42,679 bases of DNA, from the IMG/VR virus record IMGVR_UViG_3300048592_000419, positions 1-42,679 of that record; one strand, 5' to 3'. The stretch is from a virus. Positions within the stretch are counted from its first letter, which is position 1. Every line of letters starts with the position of its first letter. Below the pieces are notes generated by a model. That model ran no database searches. It had not been told where the DNA came from and worked only from the letters and a program-made list of their open reading frames with translations. Both the position numbers and the translations under genes were made by a program. Shown here one piece after another: positions 5,209 to 13,847 of this stretch.

Positions 5209-5883
5209 ATGAGCGGAAAATTTATACTTGGCGACTGTATGGACAAAGACACGGGCCTGCCGTCGATGCCGGATGCGAAGGACGCGGGGCGCAGGGTGCT
5301 GGCGATAGTAGACCCGCCGTATGGGATAGGGGAAGATGGGTTAAGTAATCATTCGCGGGGCGGACGGGCTAAGGCAACTTTATATACACCTAAAAACTGG
5401 GATAATAGCCCGCCCGATAAGACATATTTTAATGAATTGCGCCGCGTATCACATTATCAAATTATATGGGGCGCTAATCATTTTATTAGCCGCTTGCCTT
5501 ACGATTCACCGTGCTGGGTTGTATGGGATAAGCAAAATGGATGTTCTGATTTTGCAGACTGTGAACTCGCATGGACTAACTTTAAAACAGCGGTAAGAAT
5601 TACGCGGTTTAAATGGTCGGGTATGCTGCAGGGGAACATGAAACAAAAAGAATCCCGCATCCACCCCACGCAAAAGCCCGTCGCGCTTTACCGCTGGCTG
5701 CTCGAAAACTACGCCCAGCCCGGCGACTTGATACTCGACACGCACGTGGGCAGCGCCTCGTCTTTAATCGCCTGCGAGCAGATGGGATTTGATTACATCG
5801 GGTGGGAGAAAGACGCCGATTACTACGCCGCCGCTAAAAATCGGATGAGCAAAGGCGTCCAGGGGCTTATAAAATTTGAGTAG
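5209..5883 (+). CDS. DNA adenine/N4-cytosine methyltransferase, 224 aa
   Basis: This is an amino-methyltransferase that would transfer a methyl group from S-adenosylmethionine to adenine N6 or cytosine N4. FILGDCMD opens the protein, the catalytic DPPYGI is at residues 35-40, and the cofactor-binding block PGDLILDTHVGSASSL lies near 172-187. The order (DPPY first, cofactor motif last) is that of the beta class. HPTQKPVALYRWLLENY just before the cofactor block is also typical. No restriction endonuclease is adjacent, so it is probably an orphan phage methylase protecting phage DNA from host restriction. The start follows AAACAAAACGAG. Confidence 0.9.
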   Translation: MSGKFILGDCMDKDTGLPSMPDAKDAGRRVLAIVDPPYGIGEDGLSNHSRGGRAKATLYTPKNWDNSPPDKTYFNELRRVSHYQIIWGANHFISRLPYDSPCWVVWDKQNGCSDFADCELAWTNFKTAVRITRFKWSGMLQGNMKQKESRIHPTQKPVALYRWLLENYAQPGDLILDTHVGSASSLIACEQMGFDYIGWEKDADYYAAAKNRMSKGVQGLIKFE

Positions 5884-5897
5884 CCCCCAGAAAAAGA

Positions 5898-5913
5898 CGC
5901 CCGGAAGCGGGCG
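5898..5913 (+). terminator. Intercistronic hairpin with GAAG loop
   Basis: CGCCCG at 5898-5903 pairs with CGGGCG at 5908-5913 around a GAAG tetraloop. No T run follows, so it is more likely an RNA-processing or stability element than a terminator. It separates the methyltransferase from the next small gene, whose ATG is at 5945. Confidence 0.55.
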
Positions 5914-5944
5914 GGTATTGAATCACAATCAAAAAAAAGCAACC

Positions 5945-6175
5945 ATGCAACAAGAAAAGCTAGAACAAAAACTACGCAAGATCATCCTCGAAAACGAAGG
6001 CAACCGGGATGATATTTTTTCAGAGGTATATGAATTTGTTAAGCCGTTTATTGACGGCTTGATTGACATTGCGGAGCCCGCAGGGGCTTACTCAAAAGAC
6101 CCGCTTACTCACGCGAATAACACAATAGATAACTGCAAGCAAATTGCATCCTCTTTACTTGATTACGAAATTTAA
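5945..6175 (+). CDS. Hypothetical helical protein, 76 aa
   Basis: The start at 5945 follows AAAAAAAAGCAACC and avoids reading through the upstream hairpin. The protein starts with a charged helix (MQQEKLEQKLRKIILENEG) and continues with an acidic helical body ending in LLDYEI. It has no membrane segment or recognised motif. It is followed three bases after its stop by another small gene, so the two are probably co-translated. Confidence 0.65.
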   Translation: MQQEKLEQKLRKIILENEGNRDDIFSEVYEFVKPFIDGLIDIAEPAGAYSKDPLTHANNTIDNCKQIASSLLDYEI

Positions 6176-6178
6176 GCA

Positions 6179-6397
6179 ATGAAGAAGCTAATTTTAGTAA
6201 ACGAAACAGACCTCCCGATGACCGACTTTTTAGTGTTGGCGCTGGAGGTTGTCAAGTCGGGCAGGCTATCAAACAACGGTAAGCAGTATTGTTACCTGAC
6301 CTCGTTTGACGTTAACGGCAGCGAGTACCACGTTGTCAGCGATTTAAACGAGAAGTCGGATAAATTAACGCTGTATAAGCCGCCGGGTTTGAAATAA
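6179..6397 (+). CDS. Hypothetical protein, 72 aa
   Basis: This is the last gene before the structured RNA element. The protein begins MKKLILVNETDLPMTDFL and contains an aromatic beta-type middle (KQYCYLTSFDVNGSEYHVV). It is mostly beta by composition, and no domain was recognised. The start ATG lies three bases after the preceding stop in an A-rich context. Confidence 0.65.
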   Translation: MKKLILVNETDLPMTDFLVLALEVVKSGRLSNNGKQYCYLTSFDVNGSEYHVVSDLNEKSDKLTLYKPPGLK

Positions 6398-6410
6398 TTT
6401 TGTATCTTTG
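6388..6410 (+). promoter_or_regulatory. Probable promoter of the kissing-loop RNA
   Basis: TATCTTTG at 6403-6410 is a full match to the -7 box TAnnTTTG. TTTG at 6388-6391 is nearer than the usual -33 distance, and no better -33 box is visible. It would start RNA about 6416-6418, just before the first hairpin of the element at 6424-6511. Confidence 0.55.
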
Positions 6411-6423
6411 CGAAAGCATTATG

Positions 6424-6511
6424 CGAGCATGGAAAGGGATAGTAGCCTTTCCATGTTTCGATAAACACCCCTTAAAAGGGTTGACCGTCTACTATCGCGT
6501 CAGCCCTTTTT
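6424..6511 (+). ncRNA. Two-hairpin kissing-loop RNA ending in a terminator
   Basis: Hairpin 1 has a ten-pair perfect stem (6428-6437 with 6446-6455), extendable to 6424-6460 with wobble pairs and one bulge. Its loop is GATAGTAG (6438-6445). Hairpin 2 has a twelve-pair stem with one G-U pair (6474-6485 with 6499-6510) and is followed by T's. Its loop contains CTACTATC (6489-6496), the perfect eight-base complement of loop 1. A -7 box ends at 6410 and the initiator gene starts at 6534. The element could be a free short RNA of about 95 bases or an attenuator for the initiator gene. No known RNA family was recognised. Confidence 0.75.
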
Positions 6512-6533
6512 CTTTTACTCAAAAATTCGGAAC

Positions 6534-7229
6534 ATGACACAACAACCGTCTTACTACTCAATTTTACCCGCCATTGTGAGGTATTCAAAGAATCTCACAT
6601 TCTTCCAGAAAATTCTATTTAGTGAAATTACGGCTCTTGCAAACAAGGACGGGTATTGTAGCGCCGGGAACGGCTATTTTGCGGAGATTTACGGAATGGA
6701 AGAAGAAACCATTAGCCGCGCAATCTCCAAGCTGGCAAAAGAGGGGACTATTAAGGTTTTTATAAATAAAGAAGCAGGTAATAAGCGAAGAATTTACCCA
6801 TGTGATCAAGTTACCCTATTGACAAATTTATCAATACCTATTGACAAAAAAGTCAATACCCCTATTGACAAAAAAGTCAATATAATAATACAAGAGTATA
6901 ATAATACAAGAGTTAATAATCTCTCTACTAACGTAGAGAGCGCAAAGTCAAAAATTGACTACCTGAAAACAGATGAATTAAAAACTACTTTAAAGAAAAC
7001 ATTCCCCGCCGTTGGCGTGGACATGGAGATTGAAACCGCTATCGATTGGCTTAAGTCAACCGGCAAGCGATATAAGAACTATGAATCCTTTATGCGCAAT
7101 TGGTGCCGTCGGGAACAAAAGCGATTGTTAGAGCTTGCAAAGAAGAACGGAACAGCTTACACCCCACCCGTTATAGACACTACCCGCCCGGACAACGCCG
7201 TGCCACGCAATAATATGAACCTTGTATGA
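6534..7229 (+). CDS. Helix-turn-helix replication initiator (O-like), 231 aa
   Basis: The N-terminal 85 residues have the layout of phage replisome-organiser helix-turn-helix domains. YYSILPAIVRYSKNLTFFQK leads in, and NGYFAEIYGMEEETISRAIS then LAKEGTIKV form the recognition helix and wing. Residues about 95-140 are a linker (IPIDKKVNTPIDKKVN and an Asn-rich run) whose DNA carries three 20-bp iterons, tandem AT-rich repeats and an inverted repeat. The C-terminal part (150-215) is a helical domain probably used to contact the helicase loader or DnaB. Origin repeats inside the initiator gene are the lambda O arrangement. The DnaB gene lies 280 bases downstream. The start follows AAAAATTCGGAAC, just past the RNA terminator hairpin. 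Confidence 0.8.
   Translation: MTQQPSYYSILPAIVRYSKNLTFFQKILFSEITALANKDGYCSAGNGYFAEIYGMEEETISRAISKLAKEGTIKVFINKEAGNKRRIYPCDQVTLLTNLSIPIDKKVNTPIDKKVNIIIQEYNNTRVNNLSTNVESAKSKIDYLKTDELKTTLKKTFPAVGVDMEIETAIDWLKSTGKRYKNYESFMRNWCRREQKRLLELAKKNGTAYTPPVIDTTRPDNAVPRNNMNLV
6817..6960. other. Probable replication origin with iterons inside the initiator gene
   Basis: Three 20-bp iterons, each an inverted repeat with TATTGA and TCAATA ends, lie at 6817-6836, 6839-6858 and 6863-6882. The last two are identical (TATTGACAAAAAAGTCAATA). They are followed by a perfect 17-base AT-rich direct repeat with a 16-base period (6881-6897 and 6897-6913), a perfect inverted repeat CTCTCTAC-TAAC-GTAGAGAG (6921-6940) and AGTCAA-AAA-TTGACT (6946-6960), the same half-sites in reverse order. 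Iterons next to an easily melted AT-rich stretch are the usual form of an iteron origin. Confidence 0.75.
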
Positions 7230-7534
7230 ATCCGCTAGATACCACATACACCCGCTACATACACGCCCAGAACAGAGAAAGCAAAGACGCGCTTTGGGCC
7301 GCCCTACTTTGGCAGATGTACAAAGAGATAGAGTTAGAAATCTCAAAATTTGAATTTATAGGCCGGGGCCTGGCATTTGATAAGATCAAAGAAATATGCC
7401 ACATCGCCGAAAACAAGGCCGAGGCGGTGCAGATGATACGCGCCTACTTTTCAGGGCCGGCGGCCGGGGTGGCCACGCCCGAATTTATTAACACTACATT
7501 CACAGAACAATGGGAACGAACGCATACGACATAA
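7226..7534 (+). CDS. Hypothetical protein between initiator and helicase, 102 aa
   Basis: Its ATG overlaps the stop of the initiator gene (ATGA), and its own end overlaps the helicase start by 25 bases. Position alone suggests a helicase-loading or accessory replication role, but no loader motif such as a Walker box is present. The protein is soluble and helical, with TRYIHAQNRESKDALWAALL near the start and EICHIAENKAEAVQMIRAYF in the second half. Confidence 0.7.
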   Translation: MNPLDTTYTRYIHAQNRESKDALWAALLWQMYKEIELEISKFEFIGRGLAFDKIKEICHIAENKAEAVQMIRAYFSGPAAGVATPEFINTTFTEQWERTHTT

Positions 7535-8874
7535 CAACTAACTTAGCGGAGCGCTCTATCATTGCCACGCTTATAACCCGCCCGGAGCTATGGCCAAAGG
7601 TAGCTAAGGTGCTAACGCCTGCTATGTTTGCCGACGTGCAACTGCAAACGATTGCCAGGGCTATATACAAGCGCCTACAAACCAAAGAGGACGTAAACCC
7701 CGCGATCATATCCGCTGCCGTACCGGGCCTGGACGTATGGGGCCTGCTCTCCGACGTAGACGCCGCCGGCCTGGAAGAAAATACCGACTTTATTTACATG
7801 GAATACACCCGCCGCCGGGAAATTGAGATAATGACAGAGGCGGCCCGCCGTTTGGCTGCCATGGATGAAGTTAAGTCTGTACAGGGGTGGGTAGCAGAAC
7901 AGCGCGCCGCGCTCTACCGCGAAAAAGACAGGCACGATAAAAAAATACTTGCCATAGCCGAAACCCTATACACCGCCCAGCAGGCAAAGGAAAAGCAGGG
8001 GTTTACCGGCATACATACCGGCTACAACGACGAAAACGACCTCACCGGCGGCCATCAACGCGGGGATCTTATTATCCTTGCCGCCCGCCCGTCGATGGGA
8101 AAAACCACTTTGGCCGTCTGCAAAGCCGTCCGGGCTGCAAAGGCCGGTTGTCCGGCGCTGTTTATCACAATAGAAGTGAGCGCTGAAAGCATATACACTA
8201 AAGCCAACGCTTTTTTTTCCGGCGTCGATACATCGGCGATGCGATCAGGCAGAGGCACAGAGGGCGACTATCAAAACTTTGCCGTTGCGGCTGACAAACT
8301 TATCGACCTGCCGTTTTGGGTAGAGGACGGAAATGGATTAAACCTAGAACAAGTAGCGGCGCTCGTTTGGGAGTACAAAAGAAAACACGGCGTTGAAATC
8401 GTATACCTCGACTACCTGCAACTGATGACCACGAACAAGGAACGGGGGAAGAATAGAGAACAGGAAATTTCAGAGTTGAGCCGTGGGTTAAAAGGACTAG
8501 CCCGCGCCGTCAAAATTCCATTTGTGGTGCTTTCGCAGCTTTCCAGAAGTGTAGAAACCCGGGGAGGCACTAAACGCCCGATGCTTTCAGACTTGCGCGA
8601 AAGCGGGGCCATAGAGCAGGATGCGGATATGGTGGCGTTTATTTACCGCCCTGATTATTACGGCATTAAAGAGGATGAGAACGGCAACAGCCTAAAAGGC
8701 ATTACAGAGGTTATAGTGTCAAAGCACCGCAACGGCGCACTAAAAACGCTGTACCGAAAATTTGAATGGCCCTTTACAGACTTTTTGGAATGCTATTCAG
8801 ACGGCGGGGAGGTGCAGACGAATTACAACCCGACGATTGTCCGGGGCAATTACGACGAAGATTTACCCTTTTAA
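7510..8874 (+). CDS. dnaB: DnaB-type replicative helicase, 454 aa
   Basis: This is a hexameric 5'-3' helicase that unwinds phage DNA at the fork. Residues 1-130 form the DnaB N-terminal domain (NLAERSIIATLITRPELWPK, then the family's alternating helices). The RecA-like ATPase domain follows, with Walker A AARPSMGKTT at 191-200 and a Walker B region VEIVYLDYLQLM near 296. Near 375 comes LRESGAIEQDADMVAFIYRP, a hallmark of DnaB. The length matches the family. The start follows TTCACAGAACA. A T8 run lies at 8211-8218, but no long alternative frame follows it. The gene follows the initiator gene and the unknown at 7226, forming a replication cassette. Confidence 0.95.
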   Translation: MGTNAYDITTNLAERSIIATLITRPELWPKVAKVLTPAMFADVQLQTIARAIYKRLQTKEDVNPAIISAAVPGLDVWGLLSDVDAAGLEENTDFIYMEYTRRREIEIMTEAARRLAAMDEVKSVQGWVAEQRAALYREKDRHDKKILAIAETLYTAQQAKEKQGFTGIHTGYNDENDLTGGHQRGDLIILAARPSMGKTTLAVCKAVRAAKAGCPALFITIEVSAESIYTKANAFFSGVDTSAMRSGRGTEGDYQNFAVAADKLIDLPFWVEDGNGLNLEQVAALVWEYKRKHGVEIVYLDYLQLMTTNKERGKNREQEISELSRGLKGLARAVKIPFVVLSQLSRSVETRGGTKRPMLSDLRESGAIEQDADMVAFIYRPDYYGIKEDENGNSLKGITEVIVSKHRNGALKTLYRKFEWPFTDFLECYSDGGEVQTNYNPTIVRGNYDEDLPF

Positions 8875-8886
8875 AGATACCCGGCC

Positions 8887-8984
8887 CGCCCGTGCCGCGC
8901 CACCTGGAAGCAAAACGACGGGCGCAAACATTAACAAATACGGTGAATTGAAGTTTCCCAGGCCGACCAGGCGGCCAATTTTTT
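8887..8984 (+). ncRNA. Possible third two-hairpin element with complementary loops
   Basis: Hairpin 1 has a seven-pair stem (CGCCCGT at 8887-8893 with 8918-8924) and a 24-base loop containing CCTGG (8903-8907). Hairpin 2 is GGCCG (8961-8965), loop ACCAGG, CGGCC (8972-8976), followed by AATTTTTT. The second loop contains CCAGG, the complement of the first. Only five bases pair and another CCAGG lies at 8958-8962, so the loop contact is weaker than at 6424-6511 and 12312-12398. Hairpin 2 alone is a good terminator after dnaB. Confidence 0.45.
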
Positions 8985-9003
8985 CACTCTTAAAAACAGA
9001 ACA

Positions 9004-9309
9004 ATGAAAAAGAAAGCAGAACTTTTACAAACCGCTTTAAAAATGATGAAGCGGCAACTAAAAGGTGGGGGCGTAGAGTTGCCGACGGGCGAAGTTGTGG
9101 TTATCGACTTAGACGAAGCCCGCGCCCTAGCCGAAGCCCTGGAGTCGCTGCGGTGGGTTGCGGTTTACGAAAGCGACGAACGCAACGAGATAGGCATGGA
9201 ATACGTAGAGTTTGAAGATGCCGACTATATAGGCAGGCTAGCGGAAGGCGTTGATTATCTTGAAACCGTCGGCATCATCCGACTAAAAGACGAAAACGAT
9301 GAAAACTAA
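9004..9309 (+). CDS. Hypothetical acidic protein, 101 aa
   Basis: The start has the canonical early context (TTAAAAACAGAACA) and follows the terminator hairpin after dnaB. The protein begins with a basic helix (MKKKAELLQTALKMMKRQLK), then a strand stretch (VELPTGEVVVIDLDEARALA). It becomes strongly acidic toward the end (VEFEDADYIGRLAEGVDYLE). It is probably a small soluble helper; no family was recognised. The end overlaps the next start by 11 bases. Confidence 0.65.
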   Translation: MKKKAELLQTALKMMKRQLKGGGVELPTGEVVVIDLDEARALAEALESLRWVAVYESDERNEIGMEYVEFEDADYIGRLAEGVDYLETVGIIRLKDENDEN

Positions 9310-9775
9310 AGCATCAACAACCGCCCACGCTCCCGGCACCACGCGCCGACAGTCGCAAGAGGCCTTAATCCTCGCTTGGATTATGCAGTTACCGCAAACG
9401 TTAACCACACTCGCACAGCTAACCGGATTACCTAAAAACACAATCAGCGGGCGGCTATCCGATTTACAAGCGAAGGGAATAGTAGTCGGCTTTGAAACCG
9501 CGCCGGAGGTGACGAGCCGGGGGCACATGATAAACGTCACGGTGTACGATTTTGAGCCGGACGAACACCGGCAGATCGACCACGCATACAACCGCCGCCG
9601 GAATTTGGCCATTGCTCGAATCGAAAGCAGCCTAAAGAACGACCTAGAGTTTTTGCCGCAATTCCTTGTGGCTGCTATGCGCGCTTTTCTGCAACTTGAA
9701 AAAGAATTAGGGCGTCTTCACAGCGATTACCAACAGCCGGGGCAGAGGCCGCCGGATAAATTCACGGGCAAATGA
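9299..9775 (+). CDS. Winged helix-turn-helix protein, 158 aa
   Basis: Residues 18-70 form a winged helix: SQEALILAWIMQLPQTLTTL, then AQLTGLPKNTISGRLSDLQA as the turn and recognition helix, then a wing with GIVVGFETAPE. The remainder is helical and basic (DHAYNRRRNLAIARIESSLK) with a Gln/Pro-rich tail. It overlaps the preceding gene and overlaps the methyltransferase start by four bases (ATGA), so these genes are one translational unit. It could regulate the early-to-middle switch or assist the methyltransferase; neither is shown by the sequence. Confidence 0.7.
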   Translation: MKTKASTTAHAPGTTRRQSQEALILAWIMQLPQTLTTLAQLTGLPKNTISGRLSDLQAKGIVVGFETAPEVTSRGHMINVTVYDFEPDEHRQIDHAYNRRRNLAIARIESSLKNDLEFLPQFLVAAMRAFLQLEKELGRLHSDYQQPGQRPPDKFTGK

Positions 9776-10662
9776 AACAAATTGAACTTTTCGCAGGGAT
9801 CGGCGGCTTTGGCCTTGCGGGGCGTTGGGCAGGCATCGAAACGGTTTGCCAAGTTGAAATAGACAAATTTTGTCAACAGGTTTTAGCAAAAAACTTTCCT
9901 AATGTACGACGACACGACGATATACACACCTTTGACGGCACAGCCTACGCAGGAACAATTGACCTTATTTCAGGAGGTTTCCCTTGTCAACCATTCAGCC
10001 GCGCCGGAAAACGAAAAGGAAATGAAGATGACCGCGCGCTCTGGCCACAGATGCTTAGAATCATTCGAGAAGTTAAACCGACCTGGGTTGTTGGTGAAAA
10101 CGTTTTTGGGCTGCTCACAATGGACGGCGGGCAGGTATTCGACGAAATATGCACTTCGCTGGAAGATGAAGGCTATCAAACGCAAGCGTTTGTTATTCCA
10201 GCTTGTGCCGTCGGCGCTCCGCACAGGCGCGACAGGGTTTGGATTGTTGGCCACGCCCAACACTTTAGATGCAATAGCACCGAAAACAGAAAAAGCAGTG
10301 ATAAGGGAATCAACAATAACGCGTCCAAATCGAACAACATTTTCAAATCTGCGCGACCAGATTTTTCATGGCTATTTACTCCCAACCCCCGCCGCCCGCG
10401 ATCACAAGGGAACGAACAGCGAGGCGCATTTAAGCAAGGGCAAGGGGCATCGGGGCCAGCTCCCGAATTTCATAAAATCACCAGCCAGTGGCTTGAACAC
10501 TGGTATGAAGCTGCAACCCGCCTTTGTCGAATGGATGATGGGATTACCGGACGGGTGGACAGACATAGAGCGAAACGATTGAAGGCGCTCGGCAATGCGA
10601 TTGTGCCGCAAGTGGCTTATTTGATTTTTGAAGCAATAAAAGAATACGAAAATGGCGACTGA
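9772..10662 (+). CDS. dcm: C5-cytosine DNA methyltransferase, 296 aa
   Basis: It transfers methyl groups to cytosine C5. Motif I is FAGIGGFGL at 7-15, motif IV GGFPCQPFS at 68-76 with catalytic Cys72, motif VI GEN at 108-110, and motif VIII HRRDRVWIVG at 151-160. The late motifs RLCRMDDGI and RLKALGNAIVPQVA are in the last 60 residues. The region between 165 and 240 is rich in Asn, Ser and Arg and does not look like a normal target-recognition domain. In this region a second frame (9902-10582) carries its own recognisable motifs. No cognate restriction enzyme is adjacent, so it is probably an orphan phage methylase. The start overlaps the preceding stop. Confidence 0.9.
   Translation: MKQIELFAGIGGFGLAGRWAGIETVCQVEIDKFCQQVLAKNFPNVRRHDDIHTFDGTAYAGTIDLISGGFPCQPFSRAGKRKGNEDDRALWPQMLRIIREVKPTWVVGENVFGLLTMDGGQVFDEICTSLEDEGYQTQAFVIPACAVGAPHRRDRVWIVGHAQHFRCNSTENRKSSDKGINNNASKSNNIFKSARPDFSWLFTPNPRRPRSQGNEQRGAFKQGQGASGPAPEFHKITSQWLEHWYEAATRLCRMDDGITGRVDRHRAKRLKALGNAIVPQVAYLIFEAIKEYENGD
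9902..10582 (+). CDS. Nested +1-frame protein inside the C5 methyltransferase gene, 226 aa
   Basis: This frame lies wholly inside the methyltransferase gene. It is not a plain shadow. SGHRCLESFEKLNRPGLLVK and WTAGRYSTKYALRWKMKAIK are followed by FGLLATPNTLDA, then YLLPTPAARDHKG, and near the end LQPAFVEWMMGLPDGWTDIE. From memory these blocks recur in a family of phage proteins encoded beside C5 methyltransferases, including LLPTP repeats and FVEWMMG-P-GWTD. The same DNA near 10520-10565 gives RLCRMDDGI in the methyltransferase frame and FVEWMMGLPDGW here, both typical. Its start is uncertain because the ATG at 9902 lacks a good context. It may be a separate gene, or a downstream part reached by frameshifting. 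Confidence 0.6.
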   Translation: MYDDTTIYTPLTAQPTQEQLTLFQEVSLVNHSAAPENEKEMKMTARSGHRCLESFEKLNRPGLLVKTFLGCSQWTAGRYSTKYALRWKMKAIKRKRLLFQLVPSALRTGATGFGLLATPNTLDAIAPKTEKAVIRESTITRPNRTTFSNLRDQIFHGYLLPTPAARDHKGTNSEAHLSKGKGHRGQLPNFIKSPASGLNTGMKLQPAFVEWMMGLPDGWTDIERND

Positions 10663-10852
10663 ACTCGAACAGCGAATCCAAAGCCTGGAAATTCAAATTC
10701 GCGTGCTTTCCAAGTCGATAGCAAAGGCAAAGAACGGCACACGCAAGGCGGCGGACGTGGTGACGCTTGCGACGTTGCAAGGGGAGTTGGATAACCTTAA
10801 ATCAAAACAAGATGTTGAACACGGAACAGTGGAAGCGGTTACAGGCGACTAA
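10652..10852 (+). CDS. Small coiled-coil protein, 66 aa
   Basis: The start overlaps the methyltransferase stop. The sequence is almost entirely helical with heptad-like hydrophobics (MATELEQRIQSLEIQIRVLS then AADVVTLATLQGELDNLKSK). It probably forms a short coiled coil. No family was recognised. The end overlaps the start of the following truncated nuclease-like gene by about 40 bases. Confidence 0.6.
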   Translation: MATELEQRIQSLEIQIRVLSKSIAKAKNGTRKAADVVTLATLQGELDNLKSKQDVEHGTVEAVTGD

Positions 10853-11063
10853 GGCGAAGCGTAAAACCCCTAAGCACGACGAAAGCGCATTACAAACCGC
10901 CTGTGTGCGCTGGTTTCGCTTTTCTTACCCTAAGCTCGCTTTATTACTATTCAGCATCCCGAACGGCGCAAAACTACACGGCGACGCGGTGGCTAGGGCG
11001 AAGCAGTGGCAAAGGCTGGTAGGCCCGGGTACGGCAAAAGGAGCGGGATTTGGAAACGATTGA
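10812..11063 (+). pseudogene. Truncated VRR-NUC-like nuclease, 83 aa
   Basis: The N terminus (MLNTEQWKRLQATKAKRKTP) parallels that of the intact VRR-NUC protein at 11421 (LLTPEQFKRYQAGKVKKEK). The middle, ESALQTACVRWFRFSYPKLA then LFSIPNGAKL, fits the first part of a VRR-NUC domain. The frame stops right after GTAKGAGFGND, before the catalytic Asp, the E-x-K pair and the Gln. The next frame continues as a helical segment (ERDLETIEKIKQQLKKLRSD) whose stop overlaps the next gene's ATG at 11099, so a one-base shift near the A run at 11036-11039 may have broken the gene, or the missing core was deleted. The product should be catalytically dead. Confidence 0.6.
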
Positions 11064-11098
11064 AAAGATTAAACAGCAACTTAAAAAACTAAGAAGCG

Positions 11099-11455
11099 AT
11101 GAATGAAATCATTCTTTTTATGGGGAAAAATAGGCAGGTTGCATGCGATGAAAAGTGCAACAAGGCCTGGGGTATAAATTGTCGACCGAGTGTTCAATTG
11201 TCAGATAACCCAGATGATTTTGCTTATTTATCCGACGATGAACTATCAATCGCGCCGCCCGACCCAGGCACGTATGAGGGCGGTCATGCAAAGCCGATTA
11301 ATCAATGCGAAATACCGAATAAATGGTGTGTGAGAGAATGTGAGCGGCTTGTAATGTGCGAAATTCACGAAGAAATTGTTTTAAAAAACTTTAACGAACG
11401 GATATTAAACATAACACCAGATGCCGGACAACCTACTAACCCCGGAACAATTTAA
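11099..11455 (+). CDS. Conserved Cys-rich phage protein, 118 aa
   Basis: The protein has eight cysteines, including CDEKCNKAWGINC near residue 16 and WCVRECERLVMC near 76, a pattern suggesting one or two zinc or metal sites. The central VQLSDNPDDFAYLSDDEL and PDPGTYEGGHAKP segments resemble an uncharacterised protein seen in Bacteroidetes phages, by recollection only. The role is unknown. The start overlaps the stop of a frame continuing from the truncated nuclease, and the end overlaps the next gene by 35 bases. Confidence 0.75.
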   Translation: MNEIILFMGKNRQVACDEKCNKAWGINCRPSVQLSDNPDDFAYLSDDELSIAPPDPGTYEGGHAKPINQCEIPNKWCVRECERLVMCEIHEEIVLKNFNERILNITPDAGQPTNPGTI

Positions 11456-11933
11456 ACGCTACCAAGCCGGGAAGGTGAAAAAAGAAAAAGCGTTTGCCCC
11501 TGTACCTACTTGGAATAAATACACAAGCCATGTTAAATCCGGGCGGTATGGATTTGTCGTTTTAGGCGAAGATCACAAGTACACAGGCAAAGAAGAGCAA
11601 TTACAAAAAGCCGCCGCGTCGCTCTGTGATATGGCAAGGCTTTTTTGGTTCCATGCCGCAAACGAGGGCAAGCGCAATCCCCGCACAATCGCCGGGCAGG
11701 GCATGAAAAAAGGTGTTAGCGATTGCATTTTCATGGAGGGAAGCGAAAACGAGGTATTTATAGGCGCTGCAATCGAATTAAAGGCACAGGGCGGGAAGGT
11801 TGACCCGGCGCAAATAGAATTTCTTGAAACCGCATACGACAAAGGCAACTTTGCTGCGATATGCTGGAACTTGGAAAGCTTTGAAGCCTGCCTTAGATTT
11901 TTGTGGCCTTCAAAATTCAAACGTTTCATATGA
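11421..11933 (+). CDS. VRR-NUC domain nuclease, 170 aa
   Basis: VRR-NUC proteins are PD-(D/E)XK-type nucleases, often acting on branched DNA or as stand-alone phage nucleases. The protein has the family order: EEQLQKAAASLCDMARLFWF near residue 58, GMKKGVSDCIF with Asp101, AAIELKAQGG with Glu119 and Lys121, and Gln131 in KVDPAQIEFLE. All expected catalytic residues are present. Residues 1-50 are a basic extension shared in part with the truncated copy just upstream. It probably processes replication or recombination intermediates made with the ERF protein. The start lies inside the end of the preceding gene. Confidence 0.85.
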   Translation: MPDNLLTPEQFKRYQAGKVKKEKAFAPVPTWNKYTSHVKSGRYGFVVLGEDHKYTGKEEQLQKAAASLCDMARLFWFHAANEGKRNPRTIAGQGMKKGVSDCIFMEGSENEVFIGAAIELKAQGGKVDPAQIEFLETAYDKGNFAAICWNLESFEACLRFLWPSKFKRFI

Positions 11934-12286
11934 GCCATAAATCAAAATCCGGCTGGATTCTATATGTCATGTTACACGTCCCTTTCCTTGTCTTTTGCAA
12001 GATAGGCATTACGGGTGTTAGCATCCGGGGCCGGGCAAAACAGGTAGACCGGGCCGTGATAGGCTTTCCGCTACCCATCTTTTTTGTTATCCTGCCGGGA
12101 GCCTACCATCTCGAACAGTGGTTGCATAGAGCTATGTCCGGGCTTCAGGTTCGGTTTTACCGGGGGGACGGGGCGAGCGAGTGGTTTTGGCTTCCTGCCG
12201 GCGCTGTGGCTATCCTTTTCGGGTTGGCCGTTTGGGCGGGGTACGCGCTTATTGCATTCATCATAATTCAAAACCTATGCTTATAA
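11930..12286 (+). CDS. T5orf172/GIY-YIG-like protein with C-terminal membrane helix, 118 aa
   Basis: The start ATG overlaps the previous stop (ATGA). GWILYVM then VFCKIGITGVSIRGRAKQVD fits the start of a T5orf172/MUG113-type domain related to GIY-YIG nucleases: a Tyr in a strand, then KIGIT, then Arg34. YHLEQWLHRAMS supplies the expected Glu62 and His66, and SEWFWLP closes the domain. Residues 88-118 are a strongly hydrophobic stretch that would anchor the protein in a membrane. A membrane-anchored nuclease-like domain is unusual and could act on incoming or host DNA, but no activity can be read from the sequence. Confidence 0.65.
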   Translation: MSHKSKSGWILYVMLHVPFLVFCKIGITGVSIRGRAKQVDRAVIGFPLPIFFVILPGAYHLEQWLHRAMSGLQVRFYRGDGASEWFWLPAGAVAILFGLAVWAGYALIAFIIIQNLCL

Positions 12287-12311
12287 ATTTCCTTTTCACC
12301 CCGGCAGATCA

Positions 12312-12398
12312 GCGCCGCGACACTGTTACCGACGCGCCTGGAAATTTAGGTTTTCAGATTACGGCGCACATAGGTAACAGTATGCAGCGCCGTTTTTT
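12312..12398 (+). ncRNA. Pseudoknot/kissing RNA switch ending in a terminator
   Basis: The terminator stem is CGGCGC (12362-12367) with GCGCCG (12387-12392), followed by T6. Its 19-base loop holds GGTAACAGT (12373-12381), the perfect nine-base complement of ACTGTTACC (12322-12330), which is itself looped out by a CGCG/CGCG stem (12316-12319 with 12333-12336). CAGCGCCG occurs both at 12310-12317 and 12385-12392. CGGCGC can therefore pair either upstream or with its terminator partner, the layout of an antiterminator switch. The downstream gene starts at 12419. It resembles the element at 6424-6511 in plan but not in sequence. No known family was recognised. Confidence 0.7.
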
Positions 12399-12418
12399 AA
12401 ACTAATAAAAACTGAATA

Positions 12419-12649
12419 ATGATACCTATACCCGTCCAGCGCATAAAGGATGCTAAAAAGCCATGCTTGGCCACATGGGAGTTTGTAGAACAGGCCGCCA
12501 TGGAAAATTTATCTTTCTTAGTGGATAGCCCGCTAGATATGATAAGGCCGGATCGGCTAAAAAAAGCCCTGAAAAAACTTAGCGAATCTACAGGGTGCAA
12601 TTTTGAGCGTCTGCCTGACTTTACTTATCGCATCACTAATAAAAACTAG
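12419..12649 (+). CDS. Hypothetical protein, 76 aa
   Basis: The start has the early context AAAAACTGAATA and lies 21 bases after the structured terminator. The protein has a helical, mixed-charge body (MIPIPVQRIKDAKKPCLATW then DRLKKALKKLSESTGCNF). No domain was recognised. It is the last gene with an early-type start context before the tRNA-like element and the packaging genes. Confidence 0.65.
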   Translation: MIPIPVQRIKDAKKPCLATWEFVEQAAMENLSFLVDSPLDMIRPDRLKKALKKLSESTGCNFERLPDFTYRITNKN

Positions 12650-12681
12650 ATATGCCCTTCCACTGCGAAGGAGCGCCCGCG

Positions 12682-12764
12682 CCTGGCCGTGAACGAGTGG
12701 CCAAAGTTACCCCGCCTGAAACGGGGCGCATGATGCTGCGGCGGTTCGAATCCGCCCGCCAGGG
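12682..12764 (+). tRNA. tRNA-Ser(UGA)-like element with long variable arm
   Basis: The T arm is textbook: GGCGG-TTCGAAT-CCGCC (12740-12756). The anticodon stem CCCCG/CGGGG encloses CCTGAAA, giving anticodon UGA. A 12-14 base variable region that can form a short stem and a CGAGTGG D loop fit a class II serine tRNA. Deviations: C instead of the near-universal U33, a C-C mismatch at the base of the acceptor stem (CCTGGCC with CGCCAGG), G at position 8, a three-pair D stem and no encoded CCA. Flanking CCCGC (12676-12680) and GCGGG (12766-12770) extend the acceptor pairing. It may be functional, decayed, or a tRNA mimic. Confidence 0.6.
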
Positions 12765-12791
12765 AGCGGGAAGTTTGATAAATGAACAACC

Positions 12792-13847
12792 ATGCAGACT
12801 AAATTTCAAACAGAGATTAGGGCCATTCATAGGAGCGATATAAAAAACGCGCCTTATAACCCCCGTATACATGGTAAACACGCACAGCAAGCAGTAAAAG
12901 ACAACATTAAGCGCCACGGGCTTATGTCTACATTGACATGGAACGAAAGAACCGGAAATTTAGTAGGGGGCCATATGAGGCTAAAGCAACTTGATGCACT
13001 CGAATCAAAGACAAAAGGCGATTATACGCTAAGCGTGTCAGTTGTGAACTTATCCGACAAAGAAGAAAAAGAGCAAAACATTTTCCTCAACTCAACTAAA
13101 GTACAAGGAGAGTACGACGTCACGGCGCTTGCTGAATTAATGCAAGATTTAGACACCGTAGCCGCCGGGCTTGATTCAATAGACTTCGGGTCACCTGAAA
13201 TAGATTCAATGTTTGGTGATGTCGAAAAGCCAGAAAAAAAGACTGCCCGCGAATGGGTGCCGGATTTGATATTTGAAAGCAATAATTCGTTTGACATTCC
13301 AACTTTAAAGCTATCGCATTGCGCCAAACAAGTAGGCAATCCATTTGTACCATACGGGTATAATTCAAGGGACGCCAAAAACATAGGAACATACCATTTT
13401 TATGTGGATGATTACAGGTTTAATGCGATATGGGACAACCCCACAAAGATTATAAATTCCGGGTGTTCTGGAATTGTTGAACCTAATTTAAGTTTATTTG
13501 ACACTACGCCAATAGCATACGGAATCCATTTGATCTACAAAAAGAGATGGATAGCCAGATACCTGCAATCTTTCGGGATTGGCGTCTTTGTAGATTTGAA
13601 TGTTTCGTATAAGTTCAGCGAATACAACGTGCTGGGTGTTCCTGTCGGCTGGCATTCATTTGCTACCAGGGGATATAGCGACCGTATAGAGGGCCTGGAA
13701 AAAGAATTAGCATTAGCCAGGGCTATATCAAACGGAAGTGATAATTTTACGTTTATTGTGTATGGTGGAGGCAAAAAAGTAAAAGAGGTTGCAAACTCCG
13801 AGAATATCACGTACATTGAACAGGTAATGACAGACAAAAATAGGTAA
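12792..13847 (+). CDS. ParB-like N-terminal domain fused to DUF4417, 351 aa
   Basis: Residues about 10-75 match a ParB/Srx-type fold: IKNAPYNPRIHGKHAQQAVK, then IKRHGLMSTL and TGNLVGGHMRLKQLDALE, including the conserved GHxR. From about 165 the protein resembles DUF4417: FDTTPIAYGIHLIYKKRWIA, then FGIGVFVDLNVSYKF, GVPVGWHSFATRGYSDRIEG and a terminal TFIVYGGGKK. ParB folds bind or hydrolyse nucleotides and are common in phages beside methyltransferases and terminases; DUF4417 has no known function. The start follows AAATGAACAACC just after the tRNA-like element. It may act in DNA recognition for packaging, but this is inference. Confidence 0.75.
   Translation: MQTKFQTEIRAIHRSDIKNAPYNPRIHGKHAQQAVKDNIKRHGLMSTLTWNERTGNLVGGHMRLKQLDALESKTKGDYTLSVSVVNLSDKEEKEQNIFLNSTKVQGEYDVTALAELMQDLDTVAAGLDSIDFGSPEIDSMFGDVEKPEKKTAREWVPDLIFESNNSFDIPTLKLSHCAKQVGNPFVPYGYNSRDAKNIGTYHFYVDDYRFNAIWDNPTKIINSGCSGIVEPNLSLFDTTPIAYGIHLIYKKRWIARYLQSFGIGVFVDLNVSYKFSEYNVLGVPVGWHSFATRGYSDRIEGLEKELALARAISNGSDNFTFIVYGGGKKVKEVANSENITYIEQVMTDKNR

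Follow-up and report, generated by a model that had tools for sequence, protein, structure and literature searches.

Between two same-strand genes of a phage lies a short element (12312-12398) whose RNA could pair with itself in more than one way, and the question is whether it works as a switch or simply ends transcription. The source DNA, called the window here, is a viral record 42,679 bases long. The initial annotation described an RNA switch at this site, combining a nine-base pseudoknot with a terminator stem that has two alternative partners. The strings it named, their coordinates, the perfect nine-base complementarity and the T6 tract were all confirmed in the sequence (Table 1). We consider the element to be probably an ordinary intrinsic terminator between two gene blocks, with the nine-base pairing as one part of a single long hairpin.

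Table 1. Positions of the element, its parts and its surroundings in the window
Feature	Position	Strand	Remarks
Companion element	6424..6511	+	Pair of stable hairpins with 8 nt of loop-to-loop complementarity; terminator tail
Upstream gene	11903..12286	+	127 aa, T5orf172 (GIY-YIG-type) domain, hydrophobic C-terminus
Whole element	12312..12392	+	Long nested hairpin, minimum free energy -34.9 kcal/mol (folding)
5' GCGCCG	12312..12317	+	In the nested fold its GCGC (12312-12315) is paired to 12387-12390; alternative partner CGGCGC 12362-12367
ACTGTTACC	12322..12330	+	5' arm of the nine-base pairing
GCGCC	12334..12338	+	Pairs with GGCGC in the minimum-energy fold, as its third possible partner
CGGCGC	12362..12367	+	5' arm of the short terminator stem
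GGTAACAGT	12373..12381	+	3' arm of the nine-base pairing, inside the loop of the short terminator stem
GCGCCG	12387..12392	+	3' arm of the terminator stem
T6	12393..12398	+	Tract of the intrinsic terminator
Downstream ORF	12419..12649	+	76 aa, no relatives, codon usage resembling that of the phage's genes
tRNA-Ser(TGA) gene	12682-12764		Single, CCTGGC acceptor stem; follows the 76-aa ORF and precedes the ParB/DUF4417 gene

Genomic context

Searches with the terminase and ParB proteins returned viral contigs and Bacteroidota genomes as the nearest relatives, the latter including Prevotellaceae, Flavobacterium, Sphingobacterium, Hymenobacter and Spirosoma. Since Bacteroidota genomes are among these, the host of the phage is probably a Bacteroidete. 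The gene block upstream of the element serves DNA metabolism (an Erf-like annealing protein, a replication initiator, DnaB, methyltransferases and VRR-NUC), and the block downstream consists of the 76-aa ORF, the tRNA-Ser, a ParB-like/DUF4417 gene and the terminases. The element sits in a gap of 132 bases (12287-12418) flanked by same-strand ORFs with coding-like codon usage, and the ATG at 12419 lies 20 bases after the end of the U-tract.

Promoters of the Bacteroidetes type carry the motif TAnnTTTG (PMC9723704). A scan of the gap 12287-12418 for such promoters found no TAnnTTTG-type motif with a -33 partner. Because no promoter that would clearly serve the downstream block was found in the gap, constitutive full termination might silence that block. 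No Rfam covariance model matched at gathering score in the window; within the region 5800-13000 there was only a weak tRNA-Sec match, on the tRNA, with an E value of 0.22.

Sequence features and chance expectation

The CGGCGC/GCGCCG stem stands directly before the T6 tract, the arrangement expected of an intrinsic terminator, where a GC-rich stem lies 0-2 bases from a U-rich tract. The segments ACTGTTACC and GGTAACAGT are perfect complements, and both 9-mers are unique in the window. An iteron reading of the element was set aside on account of these single occurrences, as was an integron attC-like reading, for which no integron-type motif was seen either.

To assess chance expectation, the gap 12287-12418 was shuffled 20,000 times with its dinucleotide composition kept. 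Since an all-GC 6-bp stem abutting T6 arose in only 0.01% (1e-4) of these shuffles, the terminator proposed in the initial annotation is counted as a non-chance feature; as a feature of the sequence it is real and well above chance. A 9-bp inverted repeat was found in 2.2% of the shuffles, and the two features together in none of the 20,000. Taken alone, the 9-bp match is only modestly unusual, given that the gap is one of many, and matches of this kind are expected occasionally across phage gaps.

Predicted folding

The minimum-energy fold of 12300-12400 was one nested long hairpin of -34.9 kcal/mol (z -3.35), a stability that none of 200 shuffles matched. From the outside inwards, it contained GCGC 12312-12315 paired with 12387-12390, the nine base pairs, GCGCC 12334-12338 paired with GGCGC 12363-12367, and innermost a CTGGAAA/TTTTCAG stem. 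In a plus-strand folding scan, z was -3.35 or lower in 29 of 947 segments of 90 bases (about 3%), and the fold stability of the element is not exceptional against the genome background. The lowest plus-strand z (-6.69) was observed at 6804-6893, inside the replication-initiator gene, where the stretch encodes a repeated IDKKVN motif.

The nine base pairs had computed pair probabilities of 0.94-1.0, and the predicted nesting of this stem in one hairpin makes a pseudoknot unnecessary, as judged by a program that does not model pseudoknots. When the terminator state was folded with both 9-mers held open, its energy was -24.2 kcal/mol, and that of the 9-bp duplex was -11.7; the resulting kissing-loop plus terminator state, at about -36 kcal/mol by a hand sum without loop-geometry terms, would be roughly isoenergetic with the nested fold.

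As for the choice of partners, the strings for both CGGCGC/GCGCCG helices, upstream and downstream, are present as the initial annotation described, but each helix had a pair probability of about 0 in the same program, and GGCGC preferred the GCGCC at 12334-12338, a partner that had been missed. Forcing the terminator helix gave -28.1 kcal/mol, about 7 less stable than the nested fold, and forcing the upstream helix 12312-12317:12362-12367 gave -22.6 kcal/mol, a cost of about 12. In folds of the growing chain, the nested 9-bp hairpin formed once GGTAACAGT was out, ahead of the emergence of the 3' GCGCCG. The 3' GCGC remains paired in this state, with the stem ending two bases before the U-tract, which would make a less than ideal terminator. 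Because the 3' GCGC is still paired so close to the U-tract, the nested state need not be antiterminating, and the proposed antiterminator choice is weakened. Only in the state with helix 12312-12317:12362-12367 was GCGCCG 12387-12392 freed.

Companion element at 6424-6511

The element had also been grouped with 6424-6511 as two examples of one architecture. Their layout is indeed shared, with a terminator, a complementary loop and an ATG about 20 nt further on, but their predicted folding is not: two separate stable hairpins were predicted at 6424-6511 and not at 12312-12398. The second hairpin of 6424-6511 is the terminator, about 17-20 bases before the ATG of the replication initiator.

The window, its shuffles and related loci were scanned for generic complementarity between a terminator loop and an upstream loop. 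The window gave five matches of at least 8 bases compared with 0.28 per shuffled window, a background that is underestimated because the three matches in coding or repeat DNA likewise exceed the shuffle mean, and therefore the two matches in gaps (6424-6511 and 12312-12398) are not to be taken as strongly significant. The other three were a coding repeat at 507-594 and two minus-strand matches within plus-strand genes. Positions 300-600 hold repeated TTTGTCGCTTTT/AAAGCGACA motifs within the minus-strand ORF 142-1716, with many inverted repeats and T-runs, and are probably a repetitive coding region.

Proposed function and alternatives

Like an intrinsic (rho-independent) terminator, the element closes a gene block with a GC-rich stem directly before T6. 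It differs in having a terminator loop of 18-20 bases with complementarity to sequence further upstream, and the predicted fold is consequently a longer, nested hairpin. With transcription attenuators and riboswitch expression platforms it shares a GGCGC that has more than one possible partner and a terminator shortly before an ATG; unlike them, it has no known aptamer or Rfam match, and its 3' arm stays paired in both of the states predicted to be most stable. The put antitermination RNAs of HK022, which are similar to each other in sequence and suppress termination (PMC9378689), likewise occur as a pair in a single phage, each made of stem-loops and about 70-90 nt long, whereas 6424-6511 and 12312-12398 share no sequence and each ends in a terminator.

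The evidence best fits an intrinsic terminator or attenuator built on a long nested hairpin. Such a terminator would separate the DNA-metabolism genes from the block that begins with the 76-aa ORF and tRNA-Ser and continues to ParB/DUF4417 and the terminases. The RNA of the element is predicted to fold into one long hairpin, in which the outer stem is formed by GCGC and the 9 bp of ACTGTTACC/GGTAACAGT enclose a further, inner stem. Release at U6 may be directed by this hairpin or by the short CGGCGC/GCGCCG stem. Partial read-through or a phage factor could then set the level of the downstream block. If it is a plain terminator, the element marks where the DNA-metabolism transcription unit gives way to the packaging one in a little-studied Bacteroidetes-type phage.

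A true RNA switch, which we regard as unlikely, would have a 5' hairpin loop with ACTGTTACC kissing the terminator loop with GGTAACAGT. Downstream read-through would then be controlled by whether the RNA adopts the nested state or the kissing or upstream-paired one, possibly via a phage or host factor. The hand-summed energy of the kissing state is consistent with it, as are the scarcity of loop complementarities of at least 9 bases (0.05 per shuffled window), the 8-nt version with two stable hairpins at 6424-6511, and the fact that both elements end about 20 bases ahead of an ATG. However, the nested fold, which is the first to form, accounts for the 9-bp pairing with no need of a pseudoknot, the 3' GCGC is paired in the nested and kissing states alike, no relatives and hence no covariation were found, and the design was not enriched in related loci over controls. 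A pseudoknot with an antiterminator is possible, but unneeded. It is distinctly improbable that 6424-6511 and 12312-12398 form a repeated cis-acting device, in which the terminator loop would kiss an upstream loop via 8-9 bp of differing sequence and gate how far transcription reads on into the genes for replication and for packaging. Kissing loops, if real, would mean cis control of termination by the phage, with an architecture kept while the sequence changes, at two sites in one genome.

Selection might instead act on CGGCGC/GCGCCG-T6 only, with the 9-bp complementarity accidental. The frequency of 9-bp inverted repeats in the gap shuffles would allow this, and the window holds 36 of them compared with 16 in shuffles; yet further stems extend the 9-bp stem inside and outside into the fold that none of the 200 shuffles equalled, and we find an accident rather improbable. 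The terminator could also be the 3' end of a small structured RNA or put-like leader with its own promoter. A discrete structured unit with a U-tract within an intergenic gap would suit such an RNA, a weak -7-like TAAATTTC at 12284-12291 would put its start near 12297, and two similarly laid-out elements in one phage recall putL and putR of HK022 (PMC9378689). This origin is nevertheless very unlikely: TAAATTTC has no -33 partner, the promoter scan gave no match there, Rfam gave none either, and the HK022 RNAs suppress termination and are not terminator-ended (PMC9378689).

Searches for relatives

Relatives were sought with ParB/DUF4417 and TerL among viral contigs (80 loci each) and with TerL among GTDB genomes (22 loci). 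The ParB/DUF4417 and TerL searches yielded only distant phages, the best with 62% amino acid identity over half of ParB and 50% for TerL, and neither blastn nor tblastn recovered the element or its adjacent ORFs. In the related loci, the scan for loop complementarity gave few matches of at least 8 bases, with no excess over reversed, complemented or same-strand controls. The repeated design is suggestive as a property of this one phage, not as a demonstrated class. Neither pattern searches for the 6424 element nor a weak Microviridae match (E 0.1) yielded a structural relative. The pattern search for ACTGTTACC..GGTAACAGT found 33 stretches, none with a matching terminator and several with iterated copies of the motif. 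In five other phage contigs (L187, L188, L190, L192 and L204), the ACTGTTACC/GGTAACAGT motifs were clustered and iterated in an iteron-like manner, and these motifs are apparently unrelated to 12312-12398.
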